The notes below the pieces were generated by a model that searched no databases, was not told the origin of the DNA, and was given only the letters and a program-made list of their open reading frames with translations. A stretch of DNA of 43,002 nucleotides from Rhodobacter sp. (GTDB lineage Bacteria; Pseudomonadota; Alphaproteobacteria; Rhodobacterales; Rhodobacteraceae), in contig PNJK01000026.1 of assembly GCA_013821825.1 (NCBI GenBank), positions 1 to 43,002 of the forward strand, given 5' to 3'. A program made the translations under genes and the position numbers. Positions 22,330-40,389 of the stretch are shown piece after piece. Each line of letters opens with the position of its first letter. The first letter of the stretch is position 1.

Positions 22330-22333
22330 TCCG

Positions 22334-23260: not shown

Positions 23261-23272
23261 GGGGAGGGAGGC

Positions 23273-24182: not shown

Positions 24183-24967
24183 AGTACCTCGCACAGGGGC
24201 GAGGCCGGGTGTTCCAGCGCGTCGATCACGTCGAAATGGTGCTTTTCCGGGGCAGCGGTCCAGGCGCAATCCCATTCCTCTGCCAGGACGCGGGCCTGCC
24301 ACAGGAAGGCGGGGCGTTCCGCAGCCCCCACCCAGACATGTGCCGCCACGCCGGGCCGCAGCGCCAGCCGCGCCGGGCTTTCCGCCGCCGCTTCGGCTGG
24401 GTCGATCCCGAGGATGGCGTTCATACTGGTTGCCAGCAGCGGTCCCAGTTCCGTGAGGGGCGAGATTGGCACCACGCGGCTGATCTGCAAGGCCTGATCC
24501 GCGCAGCCCATCCGCGCCGCCAGATGACCGCCTGCGGAATGGCCCGTCACCACGATCGGCCCGGTCCCAAGGCTGGCAGCCCAGTCGCAGACCTTGGCGA
24601 TCTCAACTGTCATCGCGGTGATGCGCGCCTCGGGGGCCAGAGTGTAAGAGGGCATGACCACCCGGAACCCCCGCGCCAGAGGACCGGCGGCAAGGTGTGA
24701 CCAGAAGCTGCGGTCAAACGCCTTCCAGTAGCCGCCATGGATAAAGATGACCGTCCCGCAGGGATCGCTTTCGGGGAGGAACAGGTCGAGCCGCTGACGG
24801 TCGCCCGGTCCATAGGCCACCCCCTGCTGCAGGCGGGGGCCCTGCCCGGCCCGGAATGCCGCGGCCTTTGCCGCCCATCTGTCCGGAAAGTCGGCCCCGC
24901 CGGGTATGAAATCGCCATTGGCGTAGTCCCGGTCGGGGTCGGGCCAGCGATAGGGTGGGCGCGTCAC
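24167..24967 (-). CDS. Alpha/beta hydrolase (esterase/kynurenine formamidase-like)
   Basis: The roughly 266-residue hydrolase has an oxyanion-hole HGGYW motif, the nucleophile elbow GHSAGGH (catalytic Ser) and a C-terminal HHFDV histidine, as in kynurenine-formamidase-like and carboxylesterase-like enzymes. Two starts are possible. GTG 24967 overlaps the stop of the upstream uxaA-type gene in GTGA fashion and follows GGGGCGG; it is taken here. ATG 24988 would add seven residues. Coupling to the dehydratase suggests a role in the same sugar pathway, such as opening a lactone or ester, but the family is too broad to say. No tryptophan-degradation genes are nearby, which argues against a kynurenine role. 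Confidence 0.8.
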   Translation of the reverse strand: MTRPPYRWPDPDRDYANGDFIPGGADFPDRWAAKAAAFRAGQGPRLQQGVAYGPGDRQRLDLFLPESDPCGTVIFIHGGYWKAFDRSFWSHLAAGPLARGFRVVMPSYTLAPEARITAMTVEIAKVCDWAASLGTGPIVVTGHSAGGHLAARMGCADQALQISRVVPISPLTELGPLLATSMNAILGIDPAEAAAESPARLALRPGVAAHVWVGAAERPAFLWQARVLAEEWDCAWTAAPEKHHFDVIDALEHPASPLCEVLVGGL

Positions 24968-26475
24968 ATCACCGCCCCGATCTGCCATGGCACGAACTCG
25001 GCCCCGCCAAAGCCCAGTTCCTCGGACAAGGTCTGCTCACCACTGGCAACGGCGATTATCTTTTCAAGGATCTCCTCGCCCTTGGCTGCGATGCTGGTAC
25101 CATCAAGAATGTCACCGCAGTTGATGTCCATGTCCTCTTTCATCCGGCCATACATTTCAGAGTTGGTGGCCAGCTTGATGCAAGGCGAGGGCTTGTAGCC
25201 CGACACCGACCCGCGGCCAGTTGTGAAGACGATCAGCGTCGCCCCGCTTGCGATCTGGCCGGTCACAGAGCAAGGGTCATAGCCGGGGCTGTCCATGTAG
25301 ACGAAGCCGGGCGTGGTGATCGGTTCGGCGAATTTGTAGACCCCGGCCAAGGGGGCGGTGCCGCCCTTGGCGACCGCGCCGAGGGATTTTTCGAGGATCG
25401 TGGTCAAGCCGCCGCGCTTGTTGCCGGGGCTGGGGTTGTTGTCCATCTCGCCTTCGTTGCGGGCGGTGTAATCCTCCCACCAGCGGATGCGCTCCAGCAG
25501 GCGCTCGCCCACTTCCGCGCTGACCGCGCGACGGGTCAGCAGGTGTTCGGCACCGTAGATCTCGGGCGTTTCGGACAGGATCGTCGTGCCCCCCATCCGC
25601 ACCAGAAGGTCGCTGGCATGGCCAAGGGCCGGGTTGGCGGTGATTCCGGAGTATCCATCCGAGCCGCCGCATTGCAGCCCGACCACCAGCTTCGACACCG
25701 GGGCAGGGGCGCGGACCGCCTGTCCTGCAACTCTCGCCATCCCGCGCAGCACTTTCAGCGCGTGCTCGATGGTGGCGCGGGTGCCGCCTTCGCCCTGAAT
25801 GGTCATGTAGCGAAAGTTCCCGTCCGGGCGCAGGCGGCCCTGGCCGACAAGGTCGGGGACCTGCATCACCTCACAGCCCAGACCGACCAGAAGGATGCCG
25901 CCGAAGTTGGGGTTGCGGGCATAGCCCTTCAGCGTGCGCATCAGGGTGTCGTAGCCTTCGTTCACCCCCGACATGCCGCAGCCGGTCGAATGGACGATGG
26001 GGACCACGCCATCAAGTCCCGGCGTGGCAAGGATTTCCGGATCCTTTTCGGCCGCCTCGGCGATGAAGCGCGCGACAGAGCCCGAGCAGTTCACGCTGGT
26101 CAGGATGCCGAGGTAATTCCGGGTTCCCACCGACCCATCCGCGCGGTGAAACCCCATGAAGCTGCGCGGTTCAAGCGGTGGCAGAGGCCGGCTTTCGGAA
26201 CCGATCGCATAGTCGCTGGAATGCGGACCCATACCAAGGTTGTGGCTGTGGACATGCCCGCCGGCAGGCACGTCCTCGGTCGCCTGGCCGATGATCTGGC
26301 CATAACGGATGACCTGCTCGCCCTTGGCTATTGCATGCAGTGCAATCTTGTGGCCTCGTGGCACGGCGGTGGGAAGCGGCACGTTCAATTCCGCCACGAT
26401 GCTGCCTGCCGACAGGTCCTGCAAGGCGATCACCACATTGTCGGCCAAGTGCAGCCGGATCACCCCTTCAGCCAT
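24964..26475 (-). CDS. uxaA: UxaA-family (altronate/galactarate-type) dehydratase
   Basis: The 503-residue protein has an N-terminal SAF domain (residues 1-80, ending DVPAGGHVHSHNLG) and the large UxaA catalytic domain. The latter carries GFHRADGSVGTRNYLGIL, HSTGCGMSG, VGLGCE, LQCGGSDGYSGITANPALG and CGDILDG. The family dehydrates D-altronate or related aldonates/aldarates to 2-keto-3-deoxy acids using a divalent metal. It is transcribed divergently from the GntR regulator, with a shared operator in the 46-bp gap, and is coupled to the downstream alpha/beta hydrolase. No uronate isomerase or UxaB is in the window, so the aldonate may come from another route. Confidence 0.9.
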   Translation of the reverse strand: MAEGVIRLHLADNVVIALQDLSAGSIVAELNVPLPTAVPRGHKIALHAIAKGEQVIRYGQIIGQATEDVPAGGHVHSHNLGMGPHSSDYAIGSESRPLPPLEPRSFMGFHRADGSVGTRNYLGILTSVNCSGSVARFIAEAAEKDPEILATPGLDGVVPIVHSTGCGMSGVNEGYDTLMRTLKGYARNPNFGGILLVGLGCEVMQVPDLVGQGRLRPDGNFRYMTIQGEGGTRATIEHALKVLRGMARVAGQAVRAPAPVSKLVVGLQCGGSDGYSGITANPALGHASDLLVRMGGTTILSETPEIYGAEHLLTRRAVSAEVGERLLERIRWWEDYTARNEGEMDNNPSPGNKRGGLTTILEKSLGAVAKGGTAPLAGVYKFAEPITTPGFVYMDSPGYDPCSVTGQIASGATLIVFTTGRGSVSGYKPSPCIKLATNSEMYGRMKEDMDINCGDILDGTSIAAKGEEILEKIIAVASGEQTLSEELGFGGAEFVPWQIGAVM

Positions 26476-26508: not shown

Positions 26509-26524
26509 CTAACATGTTAGCATG
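26509..26524 (+). promoter_or_regulatory. GntR-type operator, copy A (uxaA / gntR intergenic)
   Basis: CTAACATGTTAGCATG contains the perfect 12-bp palindrome CTAACATGTTAG (26509-26520) and overlaps the ATG of the GntR gene at 26522. The same element, CTAACATGYTAGYATG, recurs at 30337, 37077 (minus) and 40305. FCD-type GntR regulators typically bind short palindromes of this size. The position fits control of uxaA and autoregulation. Confidence 0.75.
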
Positions 26525-27253
26525 TTACAACCAGCAGCCCCCGCCAAACAAGAGCCCTCCGCAGCCGAACGCCTGCGCCCGCTGTCCGCGTATTCGGGAT
26601 CGCTGGGCCAAAGGGTCTATCAGACCCTGCGGCACGCCATACTGTCGCTTGCCTATCGCCCCGGCGAGATCCTGCGCAAGCCCGAGATCTGCGAAGCACT
26701 TGGGGTCAGCCGCAGCCCGGTAGCCGATGCCGTCGCCCGCCTGCAGGCGGAAGGTCTGGTCGACGTGGTGCCGCAGGCCGGAACCTTCGTCGCCCGCTTT
26801 TCGATGCAGGAAATCCGCGAGGGCGCTTTCCTGCGTGAGGCGATCGAGGTGGCGGCCATCGAACGGGTCGCCGCGATCATCACCGATGAGCAGTTGCAGA
26901 TGCTGCGCCGCAACCTGACCGTCCAGGCGGCGCTGGTGGGCGACGGCGACATCCCCGGCTTCTACGCGATGGATGCAGCGCTGCATGAACTGCTTCTGTC
27001 CTTTACCGGCTTTCCCCGACTGGCCCAGGTTTCAGAGACGGCCTGGCTGCACGTCAACCGCGCCCGCCAGCTGATTCTTCCGGTCCCGGGTCGGGTTCAG
27101 GCGACTCTGGCCGAACACAACACCATCCTTGCCGCGCTGGAGGCCCACGATCCCGCCGCCGCACGCAAGGCCGTGCAGGCGCATCTGCGCCAGCTTGTCA
27201 CCTATCTTGAACCGTTGGAGCGGGACCGCCCCGATCTTTTCAATCCTGCCTGA
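26522..27253 (+). CDS. GntR-family transcriptional regulator, FCD (FadR-like) domain
   Basis: In this 243-residue regulator the winged helix-turn-helix spans about residues 25-95 (RVYQTLRHAILSLAYRPGEIL, LGVSRSPVADAVARLQAEGLV, GTFVARF). A helical FCD effector domain follows, with conserved segments FLREAIEVAAIERVA, MDAALHELLL and EHNTILAALEAHDPAAARKAVQAHL; its Asp/His residues commonly bind a metal and a sugar acid. It is divergent from uxaA. ATG 26522 lies inside operator A with no Shine-Dalgarno sequence ahead, so the mRNA may be leaderless, or the operator may occlude initiation. No alternative start before the conserved region was seen. It probably represses the operons bearing the four operators. 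Confidence 0.9.
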   Translation: MLQPAAPAKQEPSAAERLRPLSAYSGSLGQRVYQTLRHAILSLAYRPGEILRKPEICEALGVSRSPVADAVARLQAEGLVDVVPQAGTFVARFSMQEIREGAFLREAIEVAAIERVAAIITDEQLQMLRRNLTVQAALVGDGDIPGFYAMDAALHELLLSFTGFPRLAQVSETAWLHVNRARQLILPVPGRVQATLAEHNTILAALEAHDPAAARKAVQAHLRQLVTYLEPLERDRPDLFNPA

Positions 27254-27259: not shown

Positions 27260-28225
27260 ATGTCCCGCCCAAATCGCCTGCGCTATGCCGCGCGTCTGAA
27301 CGCCTTCAAGGTGAAGGGCGGCACGGTGGCCGACATGATCGCGGGGGCGGGCCGGGTCGGAGGTCTCTCTGCCGCCGACCTGAACTATCCCGATCACTTC
27401 GCCGCGCATGACCCGGGCACCTTGTCGGGGCTGCTGACGGATCAGGGCCTGGCGCTGAACGGTCTGGCAATGCGCTATTACACCGAGGACGGCTTCCGGC
27501 TGGGCGCTTTCACCCACCCCGATCCCGCCACCCGCCGGGCTGCAATCGATCTGACCAGACGCGGAATTGATGCCTGCGCCGCGATGGGCGGCAGCCAGAT
27601 GACGCTGTGGATGGGGCAGGACGGGTTCGACTACAGTTTTCAGGCGGACTACGCGCGGATGTGGGACAACACGGTAGCCGCCATTGCCGAAGTTGCCGAC
27701 CACAATCCCACCATCGACATCGCCGTGGAATACAAGCCGAACGAGCCCCGGGCCCACGCCTTGATGCCCGACTTGGCCACGACGCTGCTTGCACTGGATG
27801 AGGTCGCGCGCCCGAACACCGGTGTCACGCTGGATTTCGCCCACATGCTTTATGCCGGAGAGATGCCGGCGAAGGCGGCCATGCTTGCCGCCCGGAAAAG
27901 CCGGATCCTCGGTCTTCACCTCAATGACGGCTATGGCAAGCGCGACGACGGGTTGATCGCGGGCAGCGTCCACCCGGTGCAGACCGTCGAGCTTCTGGTC
28001 GCCATGGCGCGGTCCGGCTATGCTGGGGTGATCTATTTCGACACCTTCCCCGATCACTCCGGCATTGATCCGGTGGCGGAAGCACGGGCGAATATCCGGC
28101 TGACCGACCGGATGCTGGATCTGGCGCATCGTCTGGCCGACGACCCGGCGCTAGCGGCGGCGCAAAGCCGACAGGATGCCGTAGCGGCGACCGCTCTGGT
28201 GATGGCCGCGTTGCTTGGTGAGTGA
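27260..28225 (+). CDS. Xylose isomerase-like TIM-barrel sugar isomerase/epimerase
   Basis: The 321-residue protein belongs to the AP-endonuclease family 2 / xylose isomerase-like TIM barrel. Metal-ligand-type segments at strand ends include AVEYKPNEPRAH (Glu), TLDFAHMLYAGEMP (Asp, His), GLHLNDGYGKRDDG (His, Asp) and IYFDTFPDHSG (Asp). Enzymes of this fold isomerise or epimerise ketoses, keto-acids or inositol derivatives (for example IolE, IolI, IolO, RhaI). It starts 6 bp after the GntR stop behind GAGGTGAT, so the two genes are one transcript. The exact substrate is unknown. Confidence 0.85.
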   Translation: MSRPNRLRYAARLNAFKVKGGTVADMIAGAGRVGGLSAADLNYPDHFAAHDPGTLSGLLTDQGLALNGLAMRYYTEDGFRLGAFTHPDPATRRAAIDLTRRGIDACAAMGGSQMTLWMGQDGFDYSFQADYARMWDNTVAAIAEVADHNPTIDIAVEYKPNEPRAHALMPDLATTLLALDEVARPNTGVTLDFAHMLYAGEMPAKAAMLAARKSRILGLHLNDGYGKRDDGLIAGSVHPVQTVELLVAMARSGYAGVIYFDTFPDHSGIDPVAEARANIRLTDRMLDLAHRLADDPALAAAQSRQDAVAATALVMAALLGE

Positions 28226-28359: not shown

Positions 28360-29292
28360 ATGCCGGCTAAGCCCGTTCTTCTGTGCGCCGGCTCGCTGCA
28401 TCACGATGTAATCGTCGAAGCCCCGGCACTTCCACGCGTCGACCAGACCCTGACCGGCACCGCCGTTCGCTATGCCTTTGGCGGCAAGGGTGGCAACCAG
28501 GCCGCCGCCGCCGCCCGTGCCGGGGCCGAGGTGCATATGGCCGCAGCTGTCGGATCCGATGACCATGCCATGAAGCTGCGTTCGGCGCTCGACGCCGCGG
28601 GCGTGCTCCGTTCGGCGGTGCAGACCCACCCCGGCGCTTCTGGCATGTCCGTTGCGATCTCTCTGCCCGACGGGGCTTATGGTGCGGTCATCGTATCGGG
28701 GGCCAACCTCTTGCTGCGTCCAGAGGCGGTCCGGTTTCCCCATGACTGCGCGCTGCTTCTGCTGCAAAACGAGATTGCCGAGACGGCGAACCTTGAGCTT
28801 GCCCGGCGGGCACGCGCTGCGGGCGTGCGGACGATCCTGAACGCGGCTCCGGCGCGCAATGTGGTGCCAGAGCTTCTGGCCCTGACCGATGTGCTGGTGG
28901 TCAACCGGGGCGAGGCCGCCGATCTCTTGGGCCGCCCGGAAGCAGGGATCGACGCCACCCGCGCCGCCGAGGATCTGGCGGCACTGGGTCCGCATGCGGT
29001 CATCGTGACGCTTGGTGCCGAGGGGCTGGTCATCACCCATCAGGGCCGCCTGACCTTGCAGCCCGCCCCCCGGGTAAAGGTGGTTTCCAGCCATGGCGCG
29101 GGTGACGCCTTCATCGGTGCGCTTGCCGCCGAATGGGCAAGGGGTGAGGGGCTCGAAGCCGCCGCTGCCTTCGGTCAGGCCGCCGCCAGCCTGCATGTCA
29201 GCAGTCCGATCGATCAGCGCCCGATGATCGACGAGGCCGCGATCCGTGTCCATCGTTGGGCCGACCCGTCGCGATCCGGGCGCCCGGCCTAG
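28360..29292 (+). CDS. PfkB-family carbohydrate kinase (ribokinase-like)
   Basis: This 310-residue kinase has the N-terminal glycine signature AFGGKGGNQAAAAARAGAEV (about residues 43-62) that binds the sugar. VVNRGEAADLLG follows, and the C-terminal GAGDAFIGAL motif (about 246-255) carries the catalytic Asp and anion hole. It phosphorylates a sugar hydroxyl with ATP in the cytoplasm. A 134-bp gap separates it from the isomerase, and its 3' end overlaps the convergent aldo/keto reductase gene by 4 bp. The Shine-Dalgarno sequence is weak. It is distantly similar to the second ribokinase at 41909, so the region has two PfkB kinases plus one FGGY kinase. Confidence 0.88.
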   Translation: MPAKPVLLCAGSLHHDVIVEAPALPRVDQTLTGTAVRYAFGGKGGNQAAAAARAGAEVHMAAAVGSDDHAMKLRSALDAAGVLRSAVQTHPGASGMSVAISLPDGAYGAVIVSGANLLLRPEAVRFPHDCALLLLQNEIAETANLELARRARAAGVRTILNAAPARNVVPELLALTDVLVVNRGEAADLLGRPEAGIDATRAAEDLAALGPHAVIVTLGAEGLVITHQGRLTLQPAPRVKVVSSHGAGDAFIGALAAEWARGEGLEAAAAFGQAAASLHVSSPIDQRPMIDEAAIRVHRWADPSRSGRPA

Positions 29293-30320
29293 AGGCCGCA
29301 AGCCGCAGAGCCAGCCTGCGGGATCAGCCCTTCGTTCGCCAACGCCTGCCACAAGGCGTCAGGAATGCGCGTGGCGGCGGCGCGGATGTTGCTGTCCATC
29401 TCGGCCAGGCCCTGACCGCCTGGGATCACACTGACCACGGCAGGGTGGCGCAGCGGATACTGAAACGCCGCATCGACCAGCCGCACCCCGTGCCTTTCGC
29501 AGACCGCTTGCAGGCGTTCTGCCCGCCTCAGGACCGCTTCTGGAGCCGGGGCATAGTTGAAATGCGCCCCCTGCCGTGGCCCGGTGGCAAGGATGCCGCT
29601 GTTGTAGGGGCCACCGATCACCACGCCCACGCCACTGGCCGCCGCACGGTCCATGAAGCCCGCTGCGGCCTGCTCCAGCAGCGTATAGCGTCCGGCCAGA
29701 AGGAATACATCGAACGCGCCCCGTTGCATCAGCCAGTCGCAGGGTTCCCATTCATTCACTCCGGCACCAAAGGCCGCAATGACCCCTTCGTCGCGCAACC
29801 GGTCAAGCGCGCGGTAGCCTCCGGCCATGAACTCGGCCAGACGTTCGGCCTTGGCCATTTCGGACCCATGGGTGAAGATGTCGAGGTCGTGGACAAAAAG
29901 CACATCGATCCGGTCCAGCCCCAGCCGTTCAAGCGAGGCCTCGAGGCTGCGAAGCACGCCGTCATGGCTGTAATCGAACTTCTCACGGCGCGAGGGCACG
30001 TCGATCCACTTGCCCGCCCCATCGCCCTGGCCGGGCGGTGCCACGGACAGAAGTCGCCCGACCTTGGTCGAAAGGACGTAATCCCCCCGGGGCTTGCCGC
30101 GCAGGAAATGGTTGATCCGGGTCTCCGACAGGCCCAGCCCGTAAAGCGGCGCGGTGTCGAAGTACCGCACGCCCGCCGCCCAGGCCGCCGCAAGCACCGC
30201 TTGCGCTTCGTCCTCGGTGACGGCTTTGAAGAGGTTGCCCAAGGGTGCAGCCCCGAAGCCCAGTTCGGTAAACCGCAGCGCTTTTCCTTTGCGTGTCGTC
30301 AGGGTCCTGATCTTCTGCAT
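29289..30320 (-). CDS. Aldo/keto reductase, L-fucose/D-threo-aldose 1-dehydrogenase type
   Basis: The 343-residue NAD(P)-dependent oxidoreductase has catalytic residues Asp55 and Tyr60 (YFDTAPLYG), Lys86 (LSTKVG) and His144 (FVHD), as in AKR enzymes. The overall pattern (FTELGFGAAPLGNLF, GLGLSETR, VIGGPYNSGIL) matches the subfamily that includes L-fucose dehydrogenase, D-threo-aldose 1-dehydrogenase and pyridoxal 4-dehydrogenase. These oxidise an aldopyranose at C1 to a lactone. The start ATG 30320 follows GGAGGG; ATG 30335 upstream is less well placed. Operator B lies just upstream, shared with the divergent btpA-like operon. Confidence 0.87.
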   Translation of the reverse strand: MQKIRTLTTRKGKALRFTELGFGAAPLGNLFKAVTEDEAQAVLAAAWAAGVRYFDTAPLYGLGLSETRINHFLRGKPRGDYVLSTKVGRLLSVAPPGQGDGAGKWIDVPSRREKFDYSHDGVLRSLEASLERLGLDRIDVLFVHDLDIFTHGSEMAKAERLAEFMAGGYRALDRLRDEGVIAAFGAGVNEWEPCDWLMQRGAFDVFLLAGRYTLLEQAAAGFMDRAAASGVGVVIGGPYNSGILATGPRQGAHFNYAPAPEAVLRRAERLQAVCERHGVRLVDAAFQYPLRHPAVVSVIPGGQGLAEMDSNIRAAATRIPDALWQALANEGLIPQAGSAACGL

Positions 30321-30336
30321 GCCGCCCTCCACCAAC

Positions 30337-30352
30337 CTGACATGCTAGTATG
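30337..30352 (+). promoter_or_regulatory. GntR-type operator, copy B (aldo/keto reductase / btpA intergenic)
   Basis: CTGACATGCTAGTATG matches the consensus CTAACATGYTAGYATG except for one G. It lies in the 90-bp gap between divergent genes, 17 bp from the aldo/keto reductase start and about 60 bp before the btpA-like start, a position that could control both promoters. Confidence 0.7.
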
Positions 30353-30410
30353 CAACGGGCTTCCCGGCCACCCGCTTTCGCGTTAGCCTTCGCGGCAGAG
30401 GGAGAGTGCC

Positions 30411-31235
30411 ATGACACGTTTCGAGCAGGTCTTCGGGAAGAAGAAACCCGTCATCGCCATGGTCCATCTGGGCGCGATGCCCGGCACGCCGCTGCATGAC
30501 GCGGCAGGCGGAGTGGAGGCGATCGTGACAGCTGCCGCCGCGGACCTTGCTGCCCTGCAGGCTGCTGGCGTCGATGCGGTGATGTTCGGGAACGAAAACG
30601 ACCGGCCCTACGAGCTGAAGGTGGATGCCGCCTCGACTGCGACCATGGCCTATGTCATCGGCCGGTTGCGCGACCGGATCAGCGTGCCGTTCGGGGTCAA
30701 CGTCCTTTGGGACCCGATGGCCACCATGGCCCTTGCCGCCGCCACCGGGGCCGCATTCGTGCGCGAGATCTTCACCGGCACCTATGCCAGCGACATGGGC
30801 CTTTGGGCGCCCGATGCCGGGGCGGCCCGCCGCTATGGCACGCGGATCGGGGCGGGTGGGGTTGCCACGCTTTACAACGTCTCAGCCGAATTCGCGGGCT
30901 CGCTTGACCCGCGCCCGTTGCCGGACCGGGCCCGCAGCGCGGTGTTTTCATCGATCCCGGACGCGGTGCTGGTGTCGGGTGCGATCACCGGCGAAGCCGC
31001 GCGGATGGAGGATCTTGAGGCGGTAAAGCGCGTCCTGCCCGACATCCCCGTCCTGGCGAACACCGGTGTCAAGCATGCCACCGTGGCCGATGTGCTGCGC
31101 GTTGCCGACGGTTGTATCGTCGGATCGGCGCTGAAGCTGGGTGGCGACACCTGGGCGGCGGTCGATCCTGATCGTGCCAAGGATTTCATGGACCGGGTCC
31201 GGGCGGCCCGCAAGGCGACCGGGGGCGGCGCATGA
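30411..31235 (+). CDS. BtpA/SgcQ-family TIM-barrel protein
   Basis: This 274-residue member of the BtpA family (cyanobacterial BtpA, E. coli SgcQ) has PVIAMVHLGAMPGTPLHD near the N-terminus. MFGNENDRPYELKVD, FGVNVLWDPMATMALAAATGAAFVREIFTGTYASDMGLW and VLANTGVKHATVADVL follow, ending in DGCIVGSALK, which resembles a phosphate-binding TIM-barrel end. The biochemical role is poorly defined: the cyanobacterial protein affects photosystem I accumulation, whereas SgcQ lies in a sugar operon. Here it leads a tight operon with an M42-type enzyme, an FGGY kinase and a creatininase-family hydrolase, so a catabolic role is likely. Its stop overlaps the next ATG by 4 bp. Operator B is upstream. Confidence 0.85.
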   Translation: MTRFEQVFGKKKPVIAMVHLGAMPGTPLHDAAGGVEAIVTAAAADLAALQAAGVDAVMFGNENDRPYELKVDAASTATMAYVIGRLRDRISVPFGVNVLWDPMATMALAAATGAAFVREIFTGTYASDMGLWAPDAGAARRYGTRIGAGGVATLYNVSAEFAGSLDPRPLPDRARSAVFSSIPDAVLVSGAITGEAARMEDLEAVKRVLPDIPVLANTGVKHATVADVLRVADGCIVGSALKLGGDTWAAVDPDRAKDFMDRVRAARKATGGGA

Positions 31236-32314
31236 TCCGCGACGTCCTCACCGAACTGATGCTGATCCCCGGCCTTTCCGGCCACGAGGGACGGGTAGCC
31301 AAAGCCATCGCCGCGCATCTGGACCGGCTTGGCCTTGCCTACCGGTCCGACCGGCTGGGAAACCTGATGACCACGATCCCCGGCGATCCGGCGCTGCCGC
31401 CGGTCATGGTCTTTACCCATATGGACCAGCTTGGCTTCGTTGTCCGCAAGGTCGAGGCCTCGGGTCTGATCCGGCTGGAACGGCTTGGAGGCGTCCCCGA
31501 ACGCGCGCTGCCGGCACAGGCGGTGCTGCTGTGCACCGAAACCGCCGATATCCCCGGCGTCATCGCCAACAAGTCCCACCACGCGACGGGGCCGGAGGAG
31601 AAATACAAGGTCCTGCCCTACGTCGAGCTTTACGTCGATGCCGGCTTTGGATCGGCGGAAGCGGCGCACGCCGCAGGCATCCGGATCGGCACGCCGGTGA
31701 CCTATCTTCCAAGGGTGCTGCCGTTGCAGGGCAGCAGGCTCGCCGGCACCTCGGTCGATGACCGGGCGGGTTGCGCGGTGCTGCTGGCTCTCGCCGCTAC
31801 CCGCCGGGGGCGCGAGGGGCCTACCCTGCATCTGGTCTGGTCGGTGCAGGAAGAGTTCAACCTGCGCGGCGTCCTGCCTGCCGCCACCGTTTTGCAACCC
31901 GACATCGCGCTTCAGATCGATCTTCTGCTGGCCTGCGATACGCCCGACATGGCCACCCGGGGCGAGGTCACCCTGGGCGGCGGTCCGGGCATTTCGCTTT
32001 ACTCCTTCCACGGACGCGGGACGTTGAACGGGGTGATCCCACATCCTGCTCTGGTGCGGCTGGCCGAAGACGCGGCTGGAACCGGGGGGCTGCCCCTGCA
32101 ACGGTCGGCACATACGGGGGCGCTGACCGACCTCAGCTATATCCAGTTCATGGGGCCTGAAGGTGTCGCCTGCCTCGATGTCGGCTTTCCGATGCGCTAT
32201 TCCCATTCGGCGCTTGAGGTGGTGGACACCAACGACCTTGACGGGCTGGCGCGGCTTCTTGACCTGATGCTGGACGGGATCGACGCCAATCTGAACCTGA
32301 CGCGGTCGCCATGA
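31232..32314 (+). CDS. M42-family metallohydrolase (SgcX/FrvX-like)
   Basis: The 360-residue protein has the M42 dinuclear-metal aminopeptidase fold. Likely metal and catalytic residues are present: His63 and Asp65 (THMDQLGF), bridging Asp176 (SVDDRAGCAVLL), Glu207/Glu208 (VQEEFNLRG), Asp230 (LQIDLLL) and His325 (RYSHSALEV). Family members in sugar operons, such as SgcX and FrvX in E. coli, are annotated as aminopeptidases, but their real substrates are unclear and may be small amides or glycosides. It overlaps the BtpA-like gene and the FGGY kinase gene by 4 bp each, implying equimolar translation. BtpA-M42 adjacency also occurs as sgcQ-sgcX. Confidence 0.87.
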   Translation: MIRDVLTELMLIPGLSGHEGRVAKAIAAHLDRLGLAYRSDRLGNLMTTIPGDPALPPVMVFTHMDQLGFVVRKVEASGLIRLERLGGVPERALPAQAVLLCTETADIPGVIANKSHHATGPEEKYKVLPYVELYVDAGFGSAEAAHAAGIRIGTPVTYLPRVLPLQGSRLAGTSVDDRAGCAVLLALAATRRGREGPTLHLVWSVQEEFNLRGVLPAATVLQPDIALQIDLLLACDTPDMATRGEVTLGGGPGISLYSFHGRGTLNGVIPHPALVRLAEDAAGTGGLPLQRSAHTGALTDLSYIQFMGPEGVACLDVGFPMRYSHSALEVVDTNDLDGLARLLDLMLDGIDANLNLTRSP

Positions 32315-33783
32315 CCTACACCCTTGGCATCGACATCGGCACGTTTGAAACCAAGGGCGCGCTGGTTGCCCATGACGGCAGCATAGCCGCCATTGCCTCA
32401 CGCCCGCACAAGATGATCGTGCCGTGCCCCGGCTGGGCGGAACACCGCGCCGACGAGGATTGGTGGGGCGATTTCGTCCATGTGACGAAGGCGCTTCTGG
32501 CGCAATCCGGGATTGACCCCAAGGATATAGCTGCGGTTGCGGCCAGCGCCATCGGTCCTTGCATGCTGCCGGTGGATGGCGCGGGCGCACCCCTGATGAA
32601 CGGGGTTCTTTACGGTGTCGACACCCGCGCAACGGCCCAGATCGCCGCGCTGAATGCGGCCATCGGCGAGGACGTGATCCTGACGCACTGCGGCAATGCA
32701 CTGACCTCGCAATCGGTTGGGCCGAAGATCCTGTGGCTGAAGGAGGCGCGCCCGGATCTCTTTGCCCGGACGGCCAAAGTCCTGACCTCGACCAGCTATC
32801 TGACCTGGAAGCTGACCGGGGAATACGTCATCGACCATTACACCGCGGCCAACTTCTCGCCGCTTTACGACGTGGGCACGCAGGGCTGGACCGCGGACCT
32901 TGCCGACATCCTGCCGATTGACCGGCTGCCGCGCCTGATGTGGTCGACGGAAATCGCAGGCCGGATCACGGCGCGGGCCGCGCGGGAAACCGGCCTAGCC
33001 GAAGGCACCCCCGTCACCTGCGGCACCATCGACGCGGCGGCTGAGGCGGTCAGTGTCGGCGTCCAGTCTCCGGGCGAGATGATGCTGATGTACGGCTCGA
33101 CCGTCTTCATCATCCAGGTCACTGCCACCCCGGTGCGCGACCCGCGCCTGTGGTATGCGCCTTGGCTGTTTCCCGGCCTGCACGCCTCGATGGCGGGACT
33201 TGCCACGTCCGGGACGCTCACGCGCTGGTTTCGCGACCAACTGGCGCGTGACAGCGATTTCGCGACCTTGGCGGCAGAGGCCGCCGCCAGCCCGAAGGGG
33301 GCCAAGGGACTGATCTGCCTTCCCTATTTCTCGGGTGAGCGGACGCCGATCCATGACCCCTTCGCCAAGGGCGCCTTCTTCGGGCTTGACCTGACCCATA
33401 CCCGCGCCGACCTCTTTCGCGCCGTGCTGGAGGGAATTGCCATGGGAACCGCGCATGTCTTCGACACCTACCGTGAGCTTGCAGCCGCCCCGACGAGGGT
33501 GCTGGCCGTGGGGGGCGGCACGCAGAACGCGGTCTGGCTGCAGGCGACCTCGGACCTTGCGGGAACCCCGCAGAGCGTTTGCGGAAAGACCATGGGGGCA
33601 AGCTATGGCGATGCCTTCCTTGCGGCGGTGGCGATCGGCGCTGCACGCCCCGAGGATATCACGAGATGGAACCCGGTCGCCCGGACCGTAACGCCCGAGG
33701 CGGTTCCGGCCTATGACCGGCAATACCCGCTGTGGAAACGGCTTTACCTGCAGACCCGCGACATTGCCGAAGGGCTGGCCTGA
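32311..33783 (+). CDS. FGGY-family carbohydrate kinase (xylulokinase-like)
   Basis: This 490-residue sugar kinase has the N-terminal phosphate-binding hairpin LGIDIGTFETKGALV. A GTIDAAAEAVSVGV segment (about residues 236-249) carries the catalytic Asp, and the C-terminal ATPase motif VLAVGGGTQNAVWLQATSDLAG is present. FGGY kinases phosphorylate ketoses, alditols or carbohydrate acids at a terminal hydroxyl. Substrate residues cannot be assigned from sequence alone. It overlaps the M42 gene by 4 bp and its TGA shares one base with the creatininase-family ATG. The region thus has three distinct sugar kinases. Confidence 0.9.
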   Translation: MTYTLGIDIGTFETKGALVAHDGSIAAIASRPHKMIVPCPGWAEHRADEDWWGDFVHVTKALLAQSGIDPKDIAAVAASAIGPCMLPVDGAGAPLMNGVLYGVDTRATAQIAALNAAIGEDVILTHCGNALTSQSVGPKILWLKEARPDLFARTAKVLTSTSYLTWKLTGEYVIDHYTAANFSPLYDVGTQGWTADLADILPIDRLPRLMWSTEIAGRITARAARETGLAEGTPVTCGTIDAAAEAVSVGVQSPGEMMLMYGSTVFIIQVTATPVRDPRLWYAPWLFPGLHASMAGLATSGTLTRWFRDQLARDSDFATLAAEAAASPKGAKGLICLPYFSGERTPIHDPFAKGAFFGLDLTHTRADLFRAVLEGIAMGTAHVFDTYRELAAAPTRVLAVGGGTQNAVWLQATSDLAGTPQSVCGKTMGASYGDAFLAAVAIGAARPEDITRWNPVARTVTPEAVPAYDRQYPLWKRLYLQTRDIAEGLA

Positions 33784-34514
33784 TGCGATTTGAGCGGATG
33801 CGCCCGGTGGAGTTGCGTGCCGCGCAGGCGGCAGGGGTGCCCTTCGTGCTGCCGATCGGGGTGATGGAATACCATGGCGAGCATCTGCCCTCGGGGGTCG
33901 ACCTTCTGGCTGTGACCGGCGTGCTGGAGCGGTTGGGGGATGAGGTGGTGATCCTGCCAGCCTTCGCCTACGGCGCGGCCAGCCATGCGGTCGCCGGGCC
34001 TGAGGGGACCGGGACGCTGCATGTCGAGGCCTCGGCGATCCTGCCGATGGTCGAAGGCCTGTTTGCGGCACTGCTGGCGGGGGGCTTTCGCAACATCCAT
34101 GGCGTGATCCACCACCAGACCGAGAATTTCGCCCAAGGCATGCCGACCGATTTGACTTTCCGGCTGGCGGCGCGCAACGCGATCTTCCGGCATCTGGAGG
34201 CGACGCGCGGCCCCGGCTGGTGGGGAAGCCGCGAGATGGCGGATTACTATGCGCTTCACGCGGCGGCAGAGGACCCGTTCAACTGGATTCAGGTTCATCC
34301 GCTGTTTCCGAAAGGCGCAGAGTTTCCGTTCGACCATGCTGGGGTCGGAGAGACCGCGCTGATGCTGGCGCTGGCGCCCGAGACGGTGGCGATGGAGCAG
34401 GCGCTGGAAGGCGGGCACTGGTTCACCGAGACGGCCTCTCAGGCGACGGCAGAGCTTGGTGAGCGGGGGGTGGCAATTGCGCTGCGGCACCTGCGGGGGG
34501 TGCTGAGACTTTGA
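33783..34514 (+). CDS. Creatininase-family metallohydrolase, possibly cyclitol/diketo-sugar hydrolase
   Basis: The 243-residue protein has the creatininase signature PIGVMEYHGEHLPSGVD, supplying metal ligands Glu29, His31 and Asp40, and a DHAGVGETALMLAL segment with a further His/Glu. The usual NGHGGN motif is replaced by IHHQTENFAQGMPTDL, and NWIQVHPLFP follows. This departs from true creatininases and from MftE/FAPy deformylases. The family also includes 3-dehydro-scyllo-inosose hydrolase, which opens a diketo-cyclitol ring; with sugar kinases and an altronate-type dehydratase around, a carbocycle or keto-sugar substrate is the more likely option. This is inference. The start is coupled to the FGGY stop. 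Confidence 0.85.
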   Translation: MRFERMRPVELRAAQAAGVPFVLPIGVMEYHGEHLPSGVDLLAVTGVLERLGDEVVILPAFAYGAASHAVAGPEGTGTLHVEASAILPMVEGLFAALLAGGFRNIHGVIHHQTENFAQGMPTDLTFRLAARNAIFRHLEATRGPGWWGSREMADYYALHAAAEDPFNWIQVHPLFPKGAEFPFDHAGVGETALMLALAPETVAMEQALEGGHWFTETASQATAELGERGVAIALRHLRGVLRL

Positions 34515-35008
34515 AAGGGTGGTGGGTTTGCACCCAGCCCGCGATCCGGGCCCGATAGCTCGGCCAGGTCCATCACGCCCTTTTTCAGGATGAAGCAGCC
34601 ATAGGGCCCGCTATCGGCAGTGCGGAAGACAGTGAAAGCGCGTTTGGCGGCGTCGTAGCAGGCGAACCGCTCCAGGCTTTGCATAGTCACCGCGCGGCCC
34701 TCTGCGCTGTCTGCGACAGCTTGCATTCGGGCGAAGTTCGGCCGTTCGGCCGTGGGTTCGCCCACAACCTGCATCCGGCTGATCGGGGCGGGGACAAAGC
34801 TGTCCAGCGACATCAGGGTCAGGATTGCCCTTGCGGACGTCGGGATGTCGCAGCCGGCCATGTCGATCAGCCGGCCGTAAGTGGTATCGGTCGCGATGGT
34901 CGCGGCGGGGCGGTTCACATCGCAGATCACCAGATCGTCGCCGTGGCCCATCAGCTTCAGGCCTTGGACAATCTCGGCCGAAAGACCTTGGTCAATGCCC
35001 TTCAGCAT
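34439..35008 (-). CDS. RbsD/FucU-family sugar mutarotase (copy 1), C-terminally extended
   Basis: The conserved core (MLKGIDQGLSAEIVQGLKLMGHGDDLVICDVN, YDAAKRAFTVFRTADSGPYGCFILKKGV) is an RbsD/FucU mutarotase, which interconverts sugar anomers or ring forms. It is homologous to copy 2 at 41455. The family normally ends within a few residues of KKGV; here the frame continues about 47 further low-complexity residues. It overlaps the convergent creatininase-family gene by 76 bp, so the natural stop appears lost or the 3' end rearranged. The core is complete and probably functional. The start ATG 35008 is chosen by family; the permease operon on the same strand ends 35 bp upstream. Confidence 0.8.
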   Translation of the reverse strand: MLKGIDQGLSAEIVQGLKLMGHGDDLVICDVNRPAATIATDTTYGRLIDMAGCDIPTSARAILTLMSLDSFVPAPISRMQVVGEPTAERPNFARMQAVADSAEGRAVTMQSLERFACYDAAKRAFTVFRTADSGPYGCFILKKGVMDLAELSGPDRGLGANPPPFQSLSTPRRCRSAIATPRSPSSAVA

Positions 35009-35043: not shown

Positions 35044-35979
35044 CTACTTCACCGCCCCTGCGGCCATGCCTTTGATGATGAACCGCTCCAGCACCACGCC
35101 GATCACGACCAGAGGCAAGATCGCCGCCGCCGACAGCGCGGCCATCGACCACCAGCTGATCCCCTGACTGCCGGTCTGGCTGGCGACCATGACCGGCAGC
35201 GTATTGGCATAGGTCGAAGTCAGGAGCGCCGCGAAGAAATACTCGTTCCAGGTCAATACCAGCGACAGGATGAACGCCGCCACCATGCCGGGAAGGGCGA
35301 TCGGCAGGATGATGGTGAAGAACGCGCCCCAGACGCCAAGACCGTCGACCATCGCGGCCTCTTCCAGTTCAGTGGGGATGCCGGCGAACTGGTCGCGCAT
35401 GATCCAGCTGACGATCGGCAGCACGGTCAGCGTGTAAAGCAGGATCAGCCCGATCCTGGTGTCCAGCAGGGCCAGCTCCTTGTAAAGCACCAGGAATGGC
35501 AGCGCCAGCACGACCGGCGGCAGGATCAGCTGCGACAGGAAGAAGAACGAGATGTCGTCGTTCTTCATGTAGCCGAACTTGTAGGAAAAGCGCGACAGCC
35601 CGTAGGCCGCCAGCGACCCAAGGATCACCGCCAGCGTGGACGAGGCCAGCGCGGCGATGCTGGAATTGATGAAGCGCTTGACGAATTCGTCCCGCACGGT
35701 CGACTCCGCGCCGATCGTGTCGGGCGAAAGGCCGAGCGAGCGCCAGCCCAGCCATTTCGGCTGATAGTCGACCCAGGGCACCAGGTTCCCCTGCATCACG
35801 TTCGGGGCCATCTTGAAGCTGGTGGTGATGGTCCAGTAGATCGGAAACAGGCAGATGATCGTCCAGAGGATCAGGACGCCATACACCACCAGCCGGTTTG
35901 CGAACCACTTGGCGCGAAAGCCGCGGTCCGTCTCGCCGTCCTTGAAGATCGCCGTTTCGGTCATTTCTGGCCCGGTCAT
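35044..35979 (-). CDS. Carbohydrate ABC transporter permease, MalG type
   Basis: The 311-residue permease has six membrane spans; the first is at about residues 25-45 (VVYGVLILWTIICLFPIYW). The EAA-loop segment is IPTELEEAAMVDGLGVWGAFFTIILPIALPGM (about 205-235), with LTWNEYFFAALLTS after it, typical of MalG-like second permeases. The start ATG 35979 overlaps the stop of the upstream permease gene (ATGA), giving tight coupling. The RbsD/FucU gene follows downstream on the same strand after 35 bp. With the binding protein at 38465 and ATPase at 40390 it makes one carbohydrate importer. Confidence 0.92.
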   Translation of the reverse strand: MTGPEMTETAIFKDGETDRGFRAKWFANRLVVYGVLILWTIICLFPIYWTITTSFKMAPNVMQGNLVPWVDYQPKWLGWRSLGLSPDTIGAESTVRDEFVKRFINSSIAALASSTLAVILGSLAAYGLSRFSYKFGYMKNDDISFFFLSQLILPPVVLALPFLVLYKELALLDTRIGLILLYTLTVLPIVSWIMRDQFAGIPTELEEAAMVDGLGVWGAFFTIILPIALPGMVAAFILSLVLTWNEYFFAALLTSTYANTLPVMVASQTGSQGISWWSMAALSAAAILPLVVIGVVLERFIIKGMAAGAVK

Positions 35980-37079
35980 GTTCGCGGCGCCGTCCAGCGC
36001 GCGGCGAGTTTCATCAGGATGGTCATCGCGATGACGATGATCACCAGGTAGACCATCGCCAGCATGGTCCCGTAGCCCACGTTCGACCGATCGCGGTATT
36101 CGCGGAAGATGAAGCTGGTGACGGTGTCGGTCGCCCCGCCTGGCCCGCCCGATGTGACGTTGATTACTATGTCGGCCAGTTTCAGCTTGAAGATGATGCG
36201 GATCAGGATCGCCGTGATCGACACCGGCAGCATTAGCGGGAAAGTCACCTCCCAGAAGGATTTCCACCCGGTGGCGCCATCAACGCGACTGGCCTCGGTC
36301 AGTTCCTTCGGGATCGCCTGCAGCCCGGCCAGAAGCATGATCATCATGAAGGGGATGAAGGTCCAGGCGTCCATCAGCATGATGGTGATCTTGGCAACCT
36401 CGGGCGAGCCGAAGAAGGATGGGTTTTCCCAGCCCAGCAAGCGGGCCAGACGCGCAAGCGGGCCGAACCGTGCCTCGAGCATCGACTTGCCGATCATCCA
36501 GCTGACGGCCACGGGCGACAGCATCAGGGGCAGAAGGAACGCCACCCGGAAGAATTTCCGCGCCCGGATCTGGCCGGCAAGCAGCAGCGCCAACCCGAAG
36601 GCGACGGCATATTCGACAATGATGGCGGCGGTGTACCAGACCATGTTGCCCATGGCGTTCCAGTAGAATGGGTCAGTCCACATCTGGCGCAGGTTGGCCA
36701 GCCCGTTGAGCTGGCGTCCGTCGGGGCTGGACAGGTTCCAGTCGGAAAACGCGATCACAAGGCCGAAAAGCAGCGGGAACACGGTCAGAGAAACGACGAA
36801 CAGCGCGGCGGGCAGCACGAAAAGCGTGCGCTTGCCGTGTTCGCCGCGGATCACGACCTGCGCCCAGCACAGGCAGATGGCCCAAAAGGAATAAGCGAAA
36901 AGCGTGGGTCGCCAGGTGGAAAACCCGAAGTCGCGCCAGTCCATAATCTGCGCCACCTGGGCCAGGGCGACCAGCGCCAAGACCGCTGCCGACCCCCAGA
37001 TGAGGGTCTTGCCGAACCGGATCCGGCCAGCAGATATGTCGTCCGAGGTGACGACGTGAAGTTGGTCATTTCCACTCAT
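35976..37079 (-). CDS. Carbohydrate ABC transporter permease, MalF type
   Basis: The 367-residue permease has two extra N-terminal membrane spans (about residues 26-45 and 58-77) before the standard six, and the EAA loop IPKELTEASRVDGATGWKSFWEVTFPLMLPV. It is the first gene of the permease transcript and is coupled to the MalG-type gene by a 4-bp overlap. Its ATG at 37079 is the last ATG of operator C read on the minus strand, so the operator touches the start codon and no Shine-Dalgarno sequence is visible. The cognate binding-protein gene lies 1.4 kb upstream, behind its own terminator, rather than adjacent as usual. Confidence 0.9.
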   Translation of the reverse strand: MSGNDQLHVVTSDDISAGRIRFGKTLIWGSAAVLALVALAQVAQIMDWRDFGFSTWRPTLFAYSFWAICLCWAQVVIRGEHGKRTLFVLPAALFVVSLTVFPLLFGLVIAFSDWNLSSPDGRQLNGLANLRQMWTDPFYWNAMGNMVWYTAAIIVEYAVAFGLALLLAGQIRARKFFRVAFLLPLMLSPVAVSWMIGKSMLEARFGPLARLARLLGWENPSFFGSPEVAKITIMLMDAWTFIPFMMIMLLAGLQAIPKELTEASRVDGATGWKSFWEVTFPLMLPVSITAILIRIIFKLKLADIVINVTSGGPGGATDTVTSFIFREYRDRSNVGYGTMLAMVYLVIIVIAMTILMKLAARWTAPRT

Positions 37080-37092
37080 ACTAGCATGTTAG
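37077..37092 (-). promoter_or_regulatory. GntR-type operator, copy C (permease start)
   Basis: Read on the minus strand this is CTAACATGCTAGTATG, a full match to the shared element, and its final ATG is the start codon of the MalF-type permease (37079-37077). The arrangement mirrors copy A, where the element's final ATG is the start of the GntR gene. Confidence 0.75.
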
Positions 37093-38464: not shown

Positions 38465-40096
38465 TCACATCCCGAGCGAGGCCTTGTACAGCGCGATCTG
38501 GCTGTCCCGTCCGATCTGGTCGGTGATCTTTTCCCACGCTGCGGCAATGGCATCGGCGGTTTCCTGGGCCGATGCATACTGGCCGGCAAAGCCCTTGGCG
38601 AGTTCGTCCTCGGCTACCGAGTAATACTGGAAGATGCCGGGGATGCGCGGTTCGATCGCGGCGTTGGGGTGGTTGTAGCTGTCGCGGTTCGAGCCGAGGT
38701 AGTCCTCGATGAAGGCCCGGTCATAGCCCGCCGCTTCCCACTCCTCGAACTGGAAGTGCGAGTTGCGATAGGGCTGGAAGCCCGAGGGATAGGCCGCCAT
38801 CCACAGCGAGATGTCCTTGCCGCCGAGATGCGCCGCCGCCGACCAGGCCGCCTTGCGCTTTTTCTCGTCGCCCGAGACGCGGTTGGTGACATAGACGCCC
38901 CAGCCGAGATAGGCGAGGTTCGGGGCGAAGTTCTCGGTCTCTTCCCAGGCGCCGGCAGCGTGGTTGTAGACGCGCTTCGCACCGGGGTTGATGTCGAAGC
39001 CCACCACGTCGCCCACCACCGAGGTGTCCGAGGTGCGCGCGTTCGAGCCCACGTCGCCCCACCAGGTCAGCGCGGCACCGGTGCCGGCAAGGAACTGGCT
39101 GAAGGCGGTGGTGCCGGGGTCGGCGTTGATCTGGTCGGCCGGATAGGCCTCGGCCTTGATCAGGTCCATCACGTCCTGGATCGCCTGCACCCAGCCCGGG
39201 TTGTTGACCCGCGGCTTCATCGTGTCGGGATCGAAGAGGAAGGCCGGGTCGGACGGGTGCTTGACGTAAGCCGTGGCGCGGTCTTCCAGGAAGTAGAAGC
39301 CAAAGCCGCCCCAGCCCTTCAGCGGGTCGAGGAAGCCGTAGGCGGGCAGGCCGGTCAGCGGGTCGGTCTTGCCCTTCAGCGCCACCGACATCGCGTTCAC
39401 GTCCTCCCAGAGTCGTGGCATCTCGGCCCCGCCGATGCCGCCTTCGTCGAAATAGTCCTTGCGATAGGCGAGCGTATGGGTGTCGCCGTCGATGGTGATC
39501 CGGTAGGACTTGCCTTCCCAGGTGCCGACCGGCGGTTGCAGGTAGGCCACCAGGTCGTCGGCCTCGATCTGGGTTTTCACCCAGTCGGGCATCTCGTCCA
39601 AGAGGCCCTTGCCTGCGGTGTCGCCCTCGAAGGGCGCGCCCATCTCGATGATGTCGAAGTCGACGGTGCCGGTGGCGATCGACTGCTGCAGGCGCGGGTT
39701 GTAGTCGGCCTGGGCAAGGTCGATCCAGTTGATCTTGGCCCCGGTATAGGCCTCCCACGGCTTCAGGAAGCCACGGAAGAGGACGTTGTGCAGGTTCTGG
39801 TTGTTCAGACCCATGAAGGTCAGTTCGACGCCCGCAAACTCGCCCTCGGCGACGTTGGCCTTGGTCGGACCAAGGACCATTTCGCCGACCTTCTGCCAAT
39901 CGGCATCGGTGGGCGAACCCGCGCCGACGCCGGGGATCTTCAGGATCTCGGCACGGATGTTGCCATGCGCTTCGGCCAGTGCCGGCTTCACCGTCATCGG
40001 CAGGACGGCCATCGCCGACAGGGCGGTCGCGCCCTGCAGCATGCGGCGGCGGTTCATCGTGGCCTGCACCATTGCGTTGTATACTTCGAGTCTCAC
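38465..40096 (-). CDS. Carbohydrate ABC transporter periplasmic binding protein
   Basis: The 543-residue extracellular solute-binding protein (family 1-like) is larger than the usual 400-450 residues. An N-terminal Arg-rich leader (NRRRMLQGATALSAMAVLPMTV, residues 15-36) with twin arginines suggests Tat or Sec export, with cleavage near ALAEAHG. The mature part has typical segments: LHNVLFRGFLKPWEAYTGAKINWIDL, LTWWGDVGSNAR and KAAWSAAAHLGGKDISLWMA. The GTG 40096 start is selected because AGGGAGGA lies 6 bp upstream. It is divergent from the ATPase gene; operator D is in the shared 293-bp gap. The ligand is unknown, presumably the sugar or cyclitol that the neighbouring enzymes degrade. Confidence 0.9.
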   Translation of the reverse strand: MRLEVYNAMVQATMNRRRMLQGATALSAMAVLPMTVKPALAEAHGNIRAEILKIPGVGAGSPTDADWQKVGEMVLGPTKANVAEGEFAGVELTFMGLNNQNLHNVLFRGFLKPWEAYTGAKINWIDLAQADYNPRLQQSIATGTVDFDIIEMGAPFEGDTAGKGLLDEMPDWVKTQIEADDLVAYLQPPVGTWEGKSYRITIDGDTHTLAYRKDYFDEGGIGGAEMPRLWEDVNAMSVALKGKTDPLTGLPAYGFLDPLKGWGGFGFYFLEDRATAYVKHPSDPAFLFDPDTMKPRVNNPGWVQAIQDVMDLIKAEAYPADQINADPGTTAFSQFLAGTGAALTWWGDVGSNARTSDTSVVGDVVGFDINPGAKRVYNHAAGAWEETENFAPNLAYLGWGVYVTNRVSGDEKKRKAAWSAAAHLGGKDISLWMAAYPSGFQPYRNSHFQFEEWEAAGYDRAFIEDYLGSNRDSYNHPNAAIEPRIPGIFQYYSVAEDELAKGFAGQYASAQETADAIAAAWEKITDQIGRDSQIALYKASLGM

Positions 40097-40320: not shown

Positions 40321-40389
40321 ATCAGCCGATGGACAGGCTCGTGCAGGGCCGCTAGCCTTGAGCCGTGAAACGGGGAAGAGGAAGGGCCG

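Follow-up and report, generated by a model that had tools for sequence, protein, structure and literature searches.

A 43,002-bp stretch of DNA from Rhodobacter sp. (GenBank assembly GCA_013821825.1, contig PNJK01000026.1), which is a complete contig of a 4.0-Mb draft genome and is called the window below, carries overlapping genes for a BtpA/SgcQ family protein, an M42 metallohydrolase, an FGGY carbohydrate kinase and a creatininase-family hydrolase. Our analysis suggests that these genes make up an operon within one catabolic regulon, presumably under the control of a GntR protein. In the scheme that we propose, to which, taken as a whole, we give a probability of about one half, an ATP-binding cassette (ABC) importer would take up a carbohydrate or a sugar conjugate. 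An aldose of L-fucose, L-galactose or D-arabinose configuration would undergo mutarotation by FucU and oxidation by an aldo-keto reductase (AKR), followed by opening of the lactone (by a lactonase family in relatives) and dehydration by a UxaA-type enzyme. The other part of the imported compound would be phosphorylated by the FGGY kinase; BtpA would act on the sugar phosphate so formed, most likely as a lyase or epimerase through which an unusual ketose phosphate is connected to central metabolism, and the M42 hydrolase would cut the carbon-nitrogen (C-N), amide-type bond of this part. The genes, their overlaps and conservation, the shared operator, the linkage of BtpA to kinases and the intact M42 motifs are computational results; the order of these steps, all of the chemistry and the substrate are what we infer here.

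A conserved BtpA-M42-FGGY core

Re-reading of the open reading frames (ORFs) and Pfam searches bore out the four-gene arrangement claimed in the original prediction, a note made on this DNA from its sequence. Each ORF is intact with a single terminal stop, and the overlaps, in the order BtpA/M42/FGGY/creatininase, are 4, 4 and 1 bp (Table 1). The Pfam scores of all four products far exceed their cut-offs. BtpA (PF03437 cut-off 30 bits) is the one protein of the four to reach a curated NCBIfam cut-off, that of the subfamily model TIGR00259 (247 bits, cut-off 153), a match that leaves its function unfixed. The FGGY kinase stayed under every NCBIfam cut-off matched (best XylB, 289 bits against 380), and so did the creatininase-family protein with the equivalog models TIGR04448 (75/235 bits), MftE (41/172) and IolN (30/245). 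Its motifs E-HG-D, HHQ-E and FDHAG-GET are kept in 31 sequences.

Related loci with the module-type M42, hereafter Type I loci, were gathered by BtpA or FGGY similarity, which biases the counts of these two genes. Of 86 loci, 81 were distinct after removing repeats, and in 68 of these the sequence extends 7 kb or more to either side. Genes outside the fetched stretch or under the identity thresholds were scored as missing, so the counts among the 68 are lower bounds: BtpA 67, FGGY 66, permease 57, AKR 55, the xylose-isomerase-like TIM-barrel sugar isomerase (TIMiso) 54, solute-binding protein (SBP) 52, FucU2 37, fuconolactonase-family amidohydrolase (lactonase) 36, UxaA 26, creatininase 21 and an SIS/HxlB-like protein 13. 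Across 292 Rhodobacterales genomes, full-length M42 genes were found in 68, BtpA in 43 and both in 34, and M42 lies directly behind BtpA for 30 of the 71 full-length M42 genes (one of the 30 sits behind a BtpA 5' fragment). As gene order and sequence are kept over many genera, with this M42 placement in 30/71, a chance arrangement is excluded. The co-occurrence check advised in the original prediction thus found BtpA, M42 and FGGY together repeatedly, and the outcome named there as refuting, orthologues that never co-occur, was not what we saw. The candidate undescribed module proposed there is real and conserved, and our literature searches found no description of a BtpA-FGGY or BtpA-M42 module. 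What did not stand is its extent. The creatininase gene occurs in only 21 of the 68 loci, usually with FucU1 (18/21), which rules out the four genes as a natural unit; the core of the module is BtpA-M42-FGGY and the creatininase is accessory.

Three loci (L107, L109 and L131) carry BtpA-M42 with an importer and PfkB kinases and no matched FGGY gene, and the BtpA-M42 pair can outlast the kinase there. Two Type I loci are without an intact BtpA, one having a 5' fragment (L178:9529-9753) and the other none (L174), and both genomes have BtpA elsewhere. A further Type I locus of alphaproteobacterial appearance (L105) lies on a contig filed under a flavobacterial metagenome-assembled genome (Ca. Arcticimaribacter) and is possibly misbinned.

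A shared palindrome and a probable L-fucose-type route

A 14-bp palindrome, ACATGYTAGYATGW, precedes the dehydratase/GntR, AKR/BtpA, permease and binding-protein/ATPase units of the window, and the operator-bearing units span about 14 to 16 genes. With up to one mismatch, the four window sites were the only ones in the 4.0-Mb draft genome, and a reversed control pattern gave one match in the same scan. With up to two mismatches, 115 sites were found in the 86 Type I loci and 103 in the 81 distinct ones, or 67 per Mb; 40 control stretches, taken from genomes in the same samples, had 2 sites (2.6 per Mb). At least one site is present in 41 of the 81 distinct loci, and in 35 a site lies between AKR and BtpA; the sites are not independent because the loci are related. 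The same sequence therefore stands at each promoter and is rare elsewhere, the pattern looked for in a regulon. GntR is the presumed regulator because the site often adjoins its gene, and we infer that the putative operator is bound by this protein. Since the operator is shared, the BtpA operon appears to belong to one GntR regulon with the ABC importer, the isomerase, a kinase and the oxidative, L-fucose-type route. At permease 1 the operator runs into the start of the longest ORF, and translation of that gene may truly begin further downstream.

Judged by its gene families, one half of the locus resembles a non-phosphorylative route of the L-fucose/L-galactose/D-arabinose type. The pathway in the original prediction, built on a module that is real, had left out this route, to which the AKR, similar to plant L-galactose dehydrogenases, and UxaA of the window would belong under the common operator. 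Behind the AKR gene, related loci encode a protein whose nearest match is L-fucono-1,5-lactonase, with an SDR and an enolase-superfamily dehydratase nearby; proteins of one such locus scored 217 bits with the fuconolactonase family NF052480 (cut-off 400) and 439 bits with the 2,4-didehydro-3-deoxy-L-rhamnonate hydrolase family (cut-off 500), both below the cut-off. No close lactonase homolog was found in the window genome (best 33%), and a 70% identical FAH homolog is encoded on another of its contigs. The known pathway of this type shares with our loci the AKR, the fuconolactonase family, a UxaA- or enolase-type dehydratase, the SDR and FAH (the last ones in related loci), whereas in the partial text of PMC6336799 available to us it uses no BtpA, M42 or FGGY. 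The same portion of that paper states that a UxaA-superfamily member dehydrates D-arabinonate and that L-fuconate and L-galactonate dehydratases of this superfamily were proposed from gene context (PMC6336799).

The creatininase-family protein was considered as a replacement lactonase. Its gene is commoner in loci without a lactonase (13/21 vs 7/34, p 0.0035, at a 45% identity threshold; 9/15 vs 11/40, p 0.033, at a looser one), and the idea was left as weak because the loci are related. Homologs of an alpha/beta hydrolase at 24167-24988 occur in 6 of the 15 AKR loci without a lactonase and in 1 of the 40 with one; in the window this gene adjoins UxaA, and its product exceeds the cut-off set for a hormone-sensitive-lipase model. 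Elsewhere in the window genome, contig C8 (L171) encodes an HxlB-like SIS protein beside a lactonase-family amidohydrolase (31%), the SIS protein being 56% identical to that of the relatives (13/68 loci).

The common operator would also fit the use of one L-fucose-type aldose in two branches, in which TIMiso isomerises the sugar, the FGGY kinase acts as FucK and BtpA as an analogue of FucA in parallel to the AKR, with M42 and the creatininase in side reactions. FucU, an isomerase, an FGGY kinase and BtpA parallel the fuc set of E. coli, and TIMiso is frequent (54/68 loci). We nevertheless hold this unlikely, as TIMiso sits with the kinase PfkB1 and not with FGGY, homologs of the two occur together without FGGY or BtpA in Limimaricola and Rhizobium leguminosarum, and the tight BtpA-M42 pairing is left unexplained. 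In Paracoccus an FGGY kinase lies about 7 kb from the TIMiso-PfkB1 homologs.

The isomerase raises another alternative, a D-apiose-type pathway in which TIMiso would isomerise apiose, FGGY would phosphorylate apulose, and a transketolase or BtpA would complete the route. The best PDB match of TIMiso is 3ktc, which we take to be an apiose isomerase, and a split transketolase is encoded beside BtpA in L138. The non-adjacency of TIMiso and FGGY, the pairing of TIMiso with PfkB1 and the fact that a transketolase was noticed in L138-type loci only make us regard this pathway as very improbable. The part of PMC13001218 at hand gives aplK with aptA/aptB as markers of apiose clusters; our own observations on such a cluster cover the isomerase-like protein, FGGY and, in L138, the split transketolase.

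L138 belongs with L142, L144 and L150 to records named AG-/AH-, presumably marine single-cell genomes, in which BtpA-M42-FGGY is accompanied by permeases, a binding protein, FucU, TIMiso and kinases, and in which AKR, lactonase, UxaA and creatininase were unmatched. Directly before BtpA, L138:3231-9982 encodes a glycerol-3-phosphate dehydrogenase, a DeoC-family aldolase, a 786-aa aldehyde dehydrogenase, FucU and the split transketolase. L150 has ORF sizes and starts similar to those of L138, and in L144 a transketolase is absent between FucU and BtpA.

BtpA, its kinases and the C-N hydrolases

The best general clue to BtpA is that it belongs with a sugar-phosphorylating step. Within 5 kb of BtpA, 52 of 62 loci encode a sugar kinase or a phosphotransferase system (PTS), and none of 40 control stretches does. 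The 62 loci consist of 32 of the 49 typed order-level hits, 17 class-level and 13 phylum-level ones; G572, among the 19 class-level hits over the cut-off, was left out, G000 is uncounted, and L184, present in both samples, was counted once. Two loci (L048 and L082) were scored as misses at 5 kb though their gene run does contain FGGY at a greater distance. In the evenly drawn class sample (18 of 19 hits examined, G000 included), FGGY was found within 6 kb in 13 of 18 loci and PfkB only in 1, and in two of the four misses the contig is short, at 6.0 and 4.2 kb; in the phylum sample FGGY, PfkB or PTS was near BtpA in 14/15. The type of kinase tends to track the BtpA clade, with FGGY in the main clade, mostly PfkB in clade B and PTS for SgcQ. 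Among control genomes, family members were present in E. coli, cyanobacteria, Thermus, Thermotoga and archaea.

The barest operons point in the same direction. They are of a second kind (Type II BtpA-FGGY operons of rhizobia, Shinella, Labrenzia, Salipiger and Thermus), which share BtpA, FGGY and an ABC sugar importer with the window and differ by DeoR and SDR in place of GntR and AKR, the absence of M42 in the regions shown and, sometimes, a HAD phosphatase. In four of them (L181, L184, L160 and L183) the SDR, ABC genes, BtpA and FGGY are contiguous, with gaps too small for a further sizeable gene. BtpA being the sole enzyme there besides the dehydrogenase and the kinase, it most likely converts the sugar phosphate. 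The AlphaFold2 model of the window BtpA (predicted local distance difference test, pLDDT, 95.7) has DHPS, TrpA, ThiE, KDPGal aldolase and ribulose-5-phosphate epimerase as Foldseek neighbours, and on this model the protein comes nearest to the phosphate-binding TIM-barrel-like enzymes. In 107 sequences that represent the sampled clades, positions H19, N61, G95, G130, R168 and G219 do not vary, and R118, D184 and K242 are kept at 0.99.

The M42 protein is well placed in its family (PF05343 cut-off 23 bits), scores under the cut-off of every NCBIfam M42 model matched and keeps the motif residues that have metal and catalytic roles in M42 peptidases. Eight motif positions were compared among 63 aligned sequences: H63, D65, D176, E207, E208 and H325 were found in all 63, D236 in 62 and D177 in 59. 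M42 peptidases are known for aminopeptidase activity and a dodecameric TET assembly, and one could propose that this M42 has no role beyond that of an ordinary aminopeptidase and that BtpA helps in assembly or in a chaperone-like way, in line with the family's cyanobacterial photosystem I biogenesis name, the genes being merely co-expressed. The M42 motif residues are indeed common to FrvX and YpdE, and one NCBIfam equivalog model (NF045918) describes a BtpA of photosystem I biogenesis. The window BtpA reached only 158 bits with that model against a cut-off of 400, and polar residues are kept in every BtpA clade sampled. In a tree with only four outside sequences (FrvX, YpdE and two other Rhodobacterales M42 proteins) the module M42 proteins and SgcX formed one group apart from these (support 0.999); the tree places SgcX either beside or inside the module group, with a support of 0.35. 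On this evidence we judge the explanation by an aminopeptidase and an assembly factor quite unlikely.

Coming back to the cleavage of a C-N bond in our scheme, a C-N hydrolase gene was found within 5 kb of BtpA in 39 of the 62 loci and 2 of the 40 controls, and among loci without M42 in 14 of 37 (p 5e-4). These hydrolases belong to unrelated families, M42, M20, TenA, amidase and creatininase; in clade B an overlapping M20 hydrolase or TenA gene lies directly behind BtpA, and some Type II loci have an amidase or a gamma-glutamyltransferase-family gene. The original prediction of an amide-like hydrolysis joined to a sugar phosphorylation agrees with these counts and with those for kinases, and is partly supported for the window module and sgc. 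As a general partner function of BtpA, amide hydrolysis was rejected.

Several results weigh against the scheme or narrow it. Amide hydrolysis cannot be general for BtpA, since a C-N hydrolase was missing within 5 kb in 12 of the 16 BtpA-FGGY loci that lack M42, and the queries for these hydrolases were taken from BtpA loci, which biases the count of 39 upward. Ten of the 62 BtpA loci have neither kinase nor PTS within 5 kb, and around one haloarchaeal BtpA gene the annotated genes up to 8 kb away include no sugar kinase. Beyond the bare set, Type II loci may encode further enzymes, namely a HAD phosphatase, an isomerase-like protein or a gamma-glutamyltransferase-family protein. The Foldseek template-modelling scores of BtpA, about 0.6, indicate superfamily resemblance only, and for this reason we dropped the reading of a reaction from its PDB fold neighbours. 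At up to two mismatches, 40 of the 81 distinct Type I loci lack the operator, so the module also exists outside such a regulon and the operator is confined to part of the family. Of the 68 M42 loci, FGGY is absent from 2 and BtpA from 1. An AKR of at least 45% identity is absent from 13/68 (L104 among these has one at 42%), so the oxidative branch is separable. In R. leguminosarum a region with orthologs of TIMiso, FucU1 and the importer also has a PfkB kinase, and BtpA, M42 and FGGY are absent there. Because such combinations are found apart in relatives, the parts are separable sub-modules that share one operator here.

More broadly, and as a tentative and rather doubtful proposal, BtpA/SgcQ proteins could be widespread phosphate-binding TIM-barrel enzymes acting on the product of a partner kinase or PTS, joined here and in sgc by a dedicated, non-housekeeping M42 subfamily that cuts a C-N bond of a sugar conjugate. 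If true, this would be an undescribed bacterial route for sugar-amides or other N-linked sugar compounds, in the window fused to an L-fucose-type pathway under one regulator. In this locus BtpA and M42 are connected with a particular importer, kinase and putative operator, so that the substrate can be searched for through the importer ligand or operator induction and the result then transferred to sgc. The gene set is in this way a means to learn the function of the BtpA/SgcQ family and its M42 partner, and the relation of BtpA clade to kinase type offers a general, testable rule for the family.

Known systems and surrounding genes

The original prediction had pointed to the BtpA-M42 pair in the sgc operon of E. 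coli. Both genes are present in E. coli K-12 sgcXBCQAER (SgcQ 47% and SgcX 37% identical to the window proteins), together with a sugar-phosphorylating system, so the statement is right; sgcX and sgcQ are, however, separated by sgcB and sgcC. The system is a PTS in sgc, whereas the window has an ABC importer and FGGY; sgc also has the SgcE epimerase and a different regulator, its annotated genes include no AKR, UxaA, FucU or creatininase, and SgcQ falls outside the FGGY-linked BtpA clade. PTS and SgcE-like epimerase genes were absent among the identified genes of the window, which is therefore not an sgc-type operon. The remark that the biochemistry of sgc is unsettled agrees with the partial text of a July 2026 paper, in which the operon is functionally unassigned (PMC13343008).

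The clade B operons (Rhizobium tumorigenes, Pantoea, Shinella) resemble the window in BtpA, a PfkB kinase and a C-N hydrolase and differ by M20 or TenA in place of M42, an rbs-type ABC importer, a phosphotriesterase-related protein and a GATase1-like protein. In L218, L219 and L222 the rbs-type ABC, phosphotriesterase-related, GATase1-like, PfkB, BtpA and M20/TenA genes stand together, apparently as a separate uncharacterised catabolic cluster.

Table 1. Genes of the module, surrounding genes and putative operator sites in the window.
Feature	Position	Strand	Remarks
UxaA/GarD-superfamily sugar-acid dehydratase	24964..26475	-	GD_AH_C 337 bits; putative operator at divergent promoter
Putative operator ACATGTTAGCATGT	26512..26525		between UxaA and GntR
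GntR-FCD regulator, presumed for the locus	26522..27253	+	FCD 92 bits, GntR 65 bits; operator binding predicted
TIMiso, xylose-isomerase-like TIM-barrel sugar isomerase	27260..28225	+	AP_endonuc_2; best PDB match 3ktc, E 4.6e-51
PfkB kinase 1 (PfkB1)	28360..29292	+	PfkB 158 bits
Aldo-keto reductase (AKR)	29289..30335	-	nearest solved relatives L-galactose dehydrogenases; 8scc, E 1.1e-29
Putative operator ACATGCTAGTATGC	30340..30353		between AKR and BtpA
BtpA/SgcQ family protein	30411..31235	+	274 aa; PF03437 244 bits
M42 metallohydrolase, grouping with SgcX	31232..32314	+	360 aa; PF05343 216 bits
FGGY carbohydrate kinase, unassigned specificity	32311..33783	+	490 aa; FGGY_N 154 bits, FGGY_C 102 bits
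Creatininase-family hydrolase (accessory)	33783..34514	+	243 aa; PF02633 95 bits
FucU1, RbsD/FucU mutarotase family	34439..35008	-	PF05025 92 bits
ABC permease 2 (MalG type)	35044..35979	-	
ABC permease 1 (MalF type)	35976..37079	-	
Putative operator ACATGCTAGTATGA	37076..37089	-	5' end of permease 1
Long solute-binding protein (SBP_bac_1)	38465..40096	-	best Foldseek matches are carbohydrate-binding proteins
Putative operator ACATGTTAGTATGA	40308..40321		between SBP and ABC ATPase
ABC ATPase (UgpC subfamily)	40390..41442	+	NF008653 505 bits, cut-off 432
FucU2, mutarotase family	41455..41907	+	L-fucose mutarotase model 73 bits, cut-off 141
PfkB kinase 2, ribokinase-like	41909..42835	+	288 bits, cut-off 300

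The ABC importer named in the original prediction is present, with its binding protein, permeases and ATPase. The best matches of the binding-protein model (pLDDT 78.6) include one sorbitol-named and several oligosaccharide-binding proteins, which fits a carbohydrate or glycoside and names no ligand. The UxaA/GarD-superfamily dehydratase scores under the galactarate dehydratase cut-off. A scan for promoters and terminators gave 4 sigma-70-like promoters with 1.6 expected and 9 terminator-like elements with 9.4 expected, and an Rfam search gave no matches. A PotABC-type ABC transporter is encoded just upstream, at 21190-24142, where the operator is absent; among the neighbourhoods compared, it adjoins the module in close relatives only. 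The FucU1 and creatininase genes run towards each other and share 76 bp at their 3' ends, and the FucU1 frame extends about 44 residues beyond its Pfam match.

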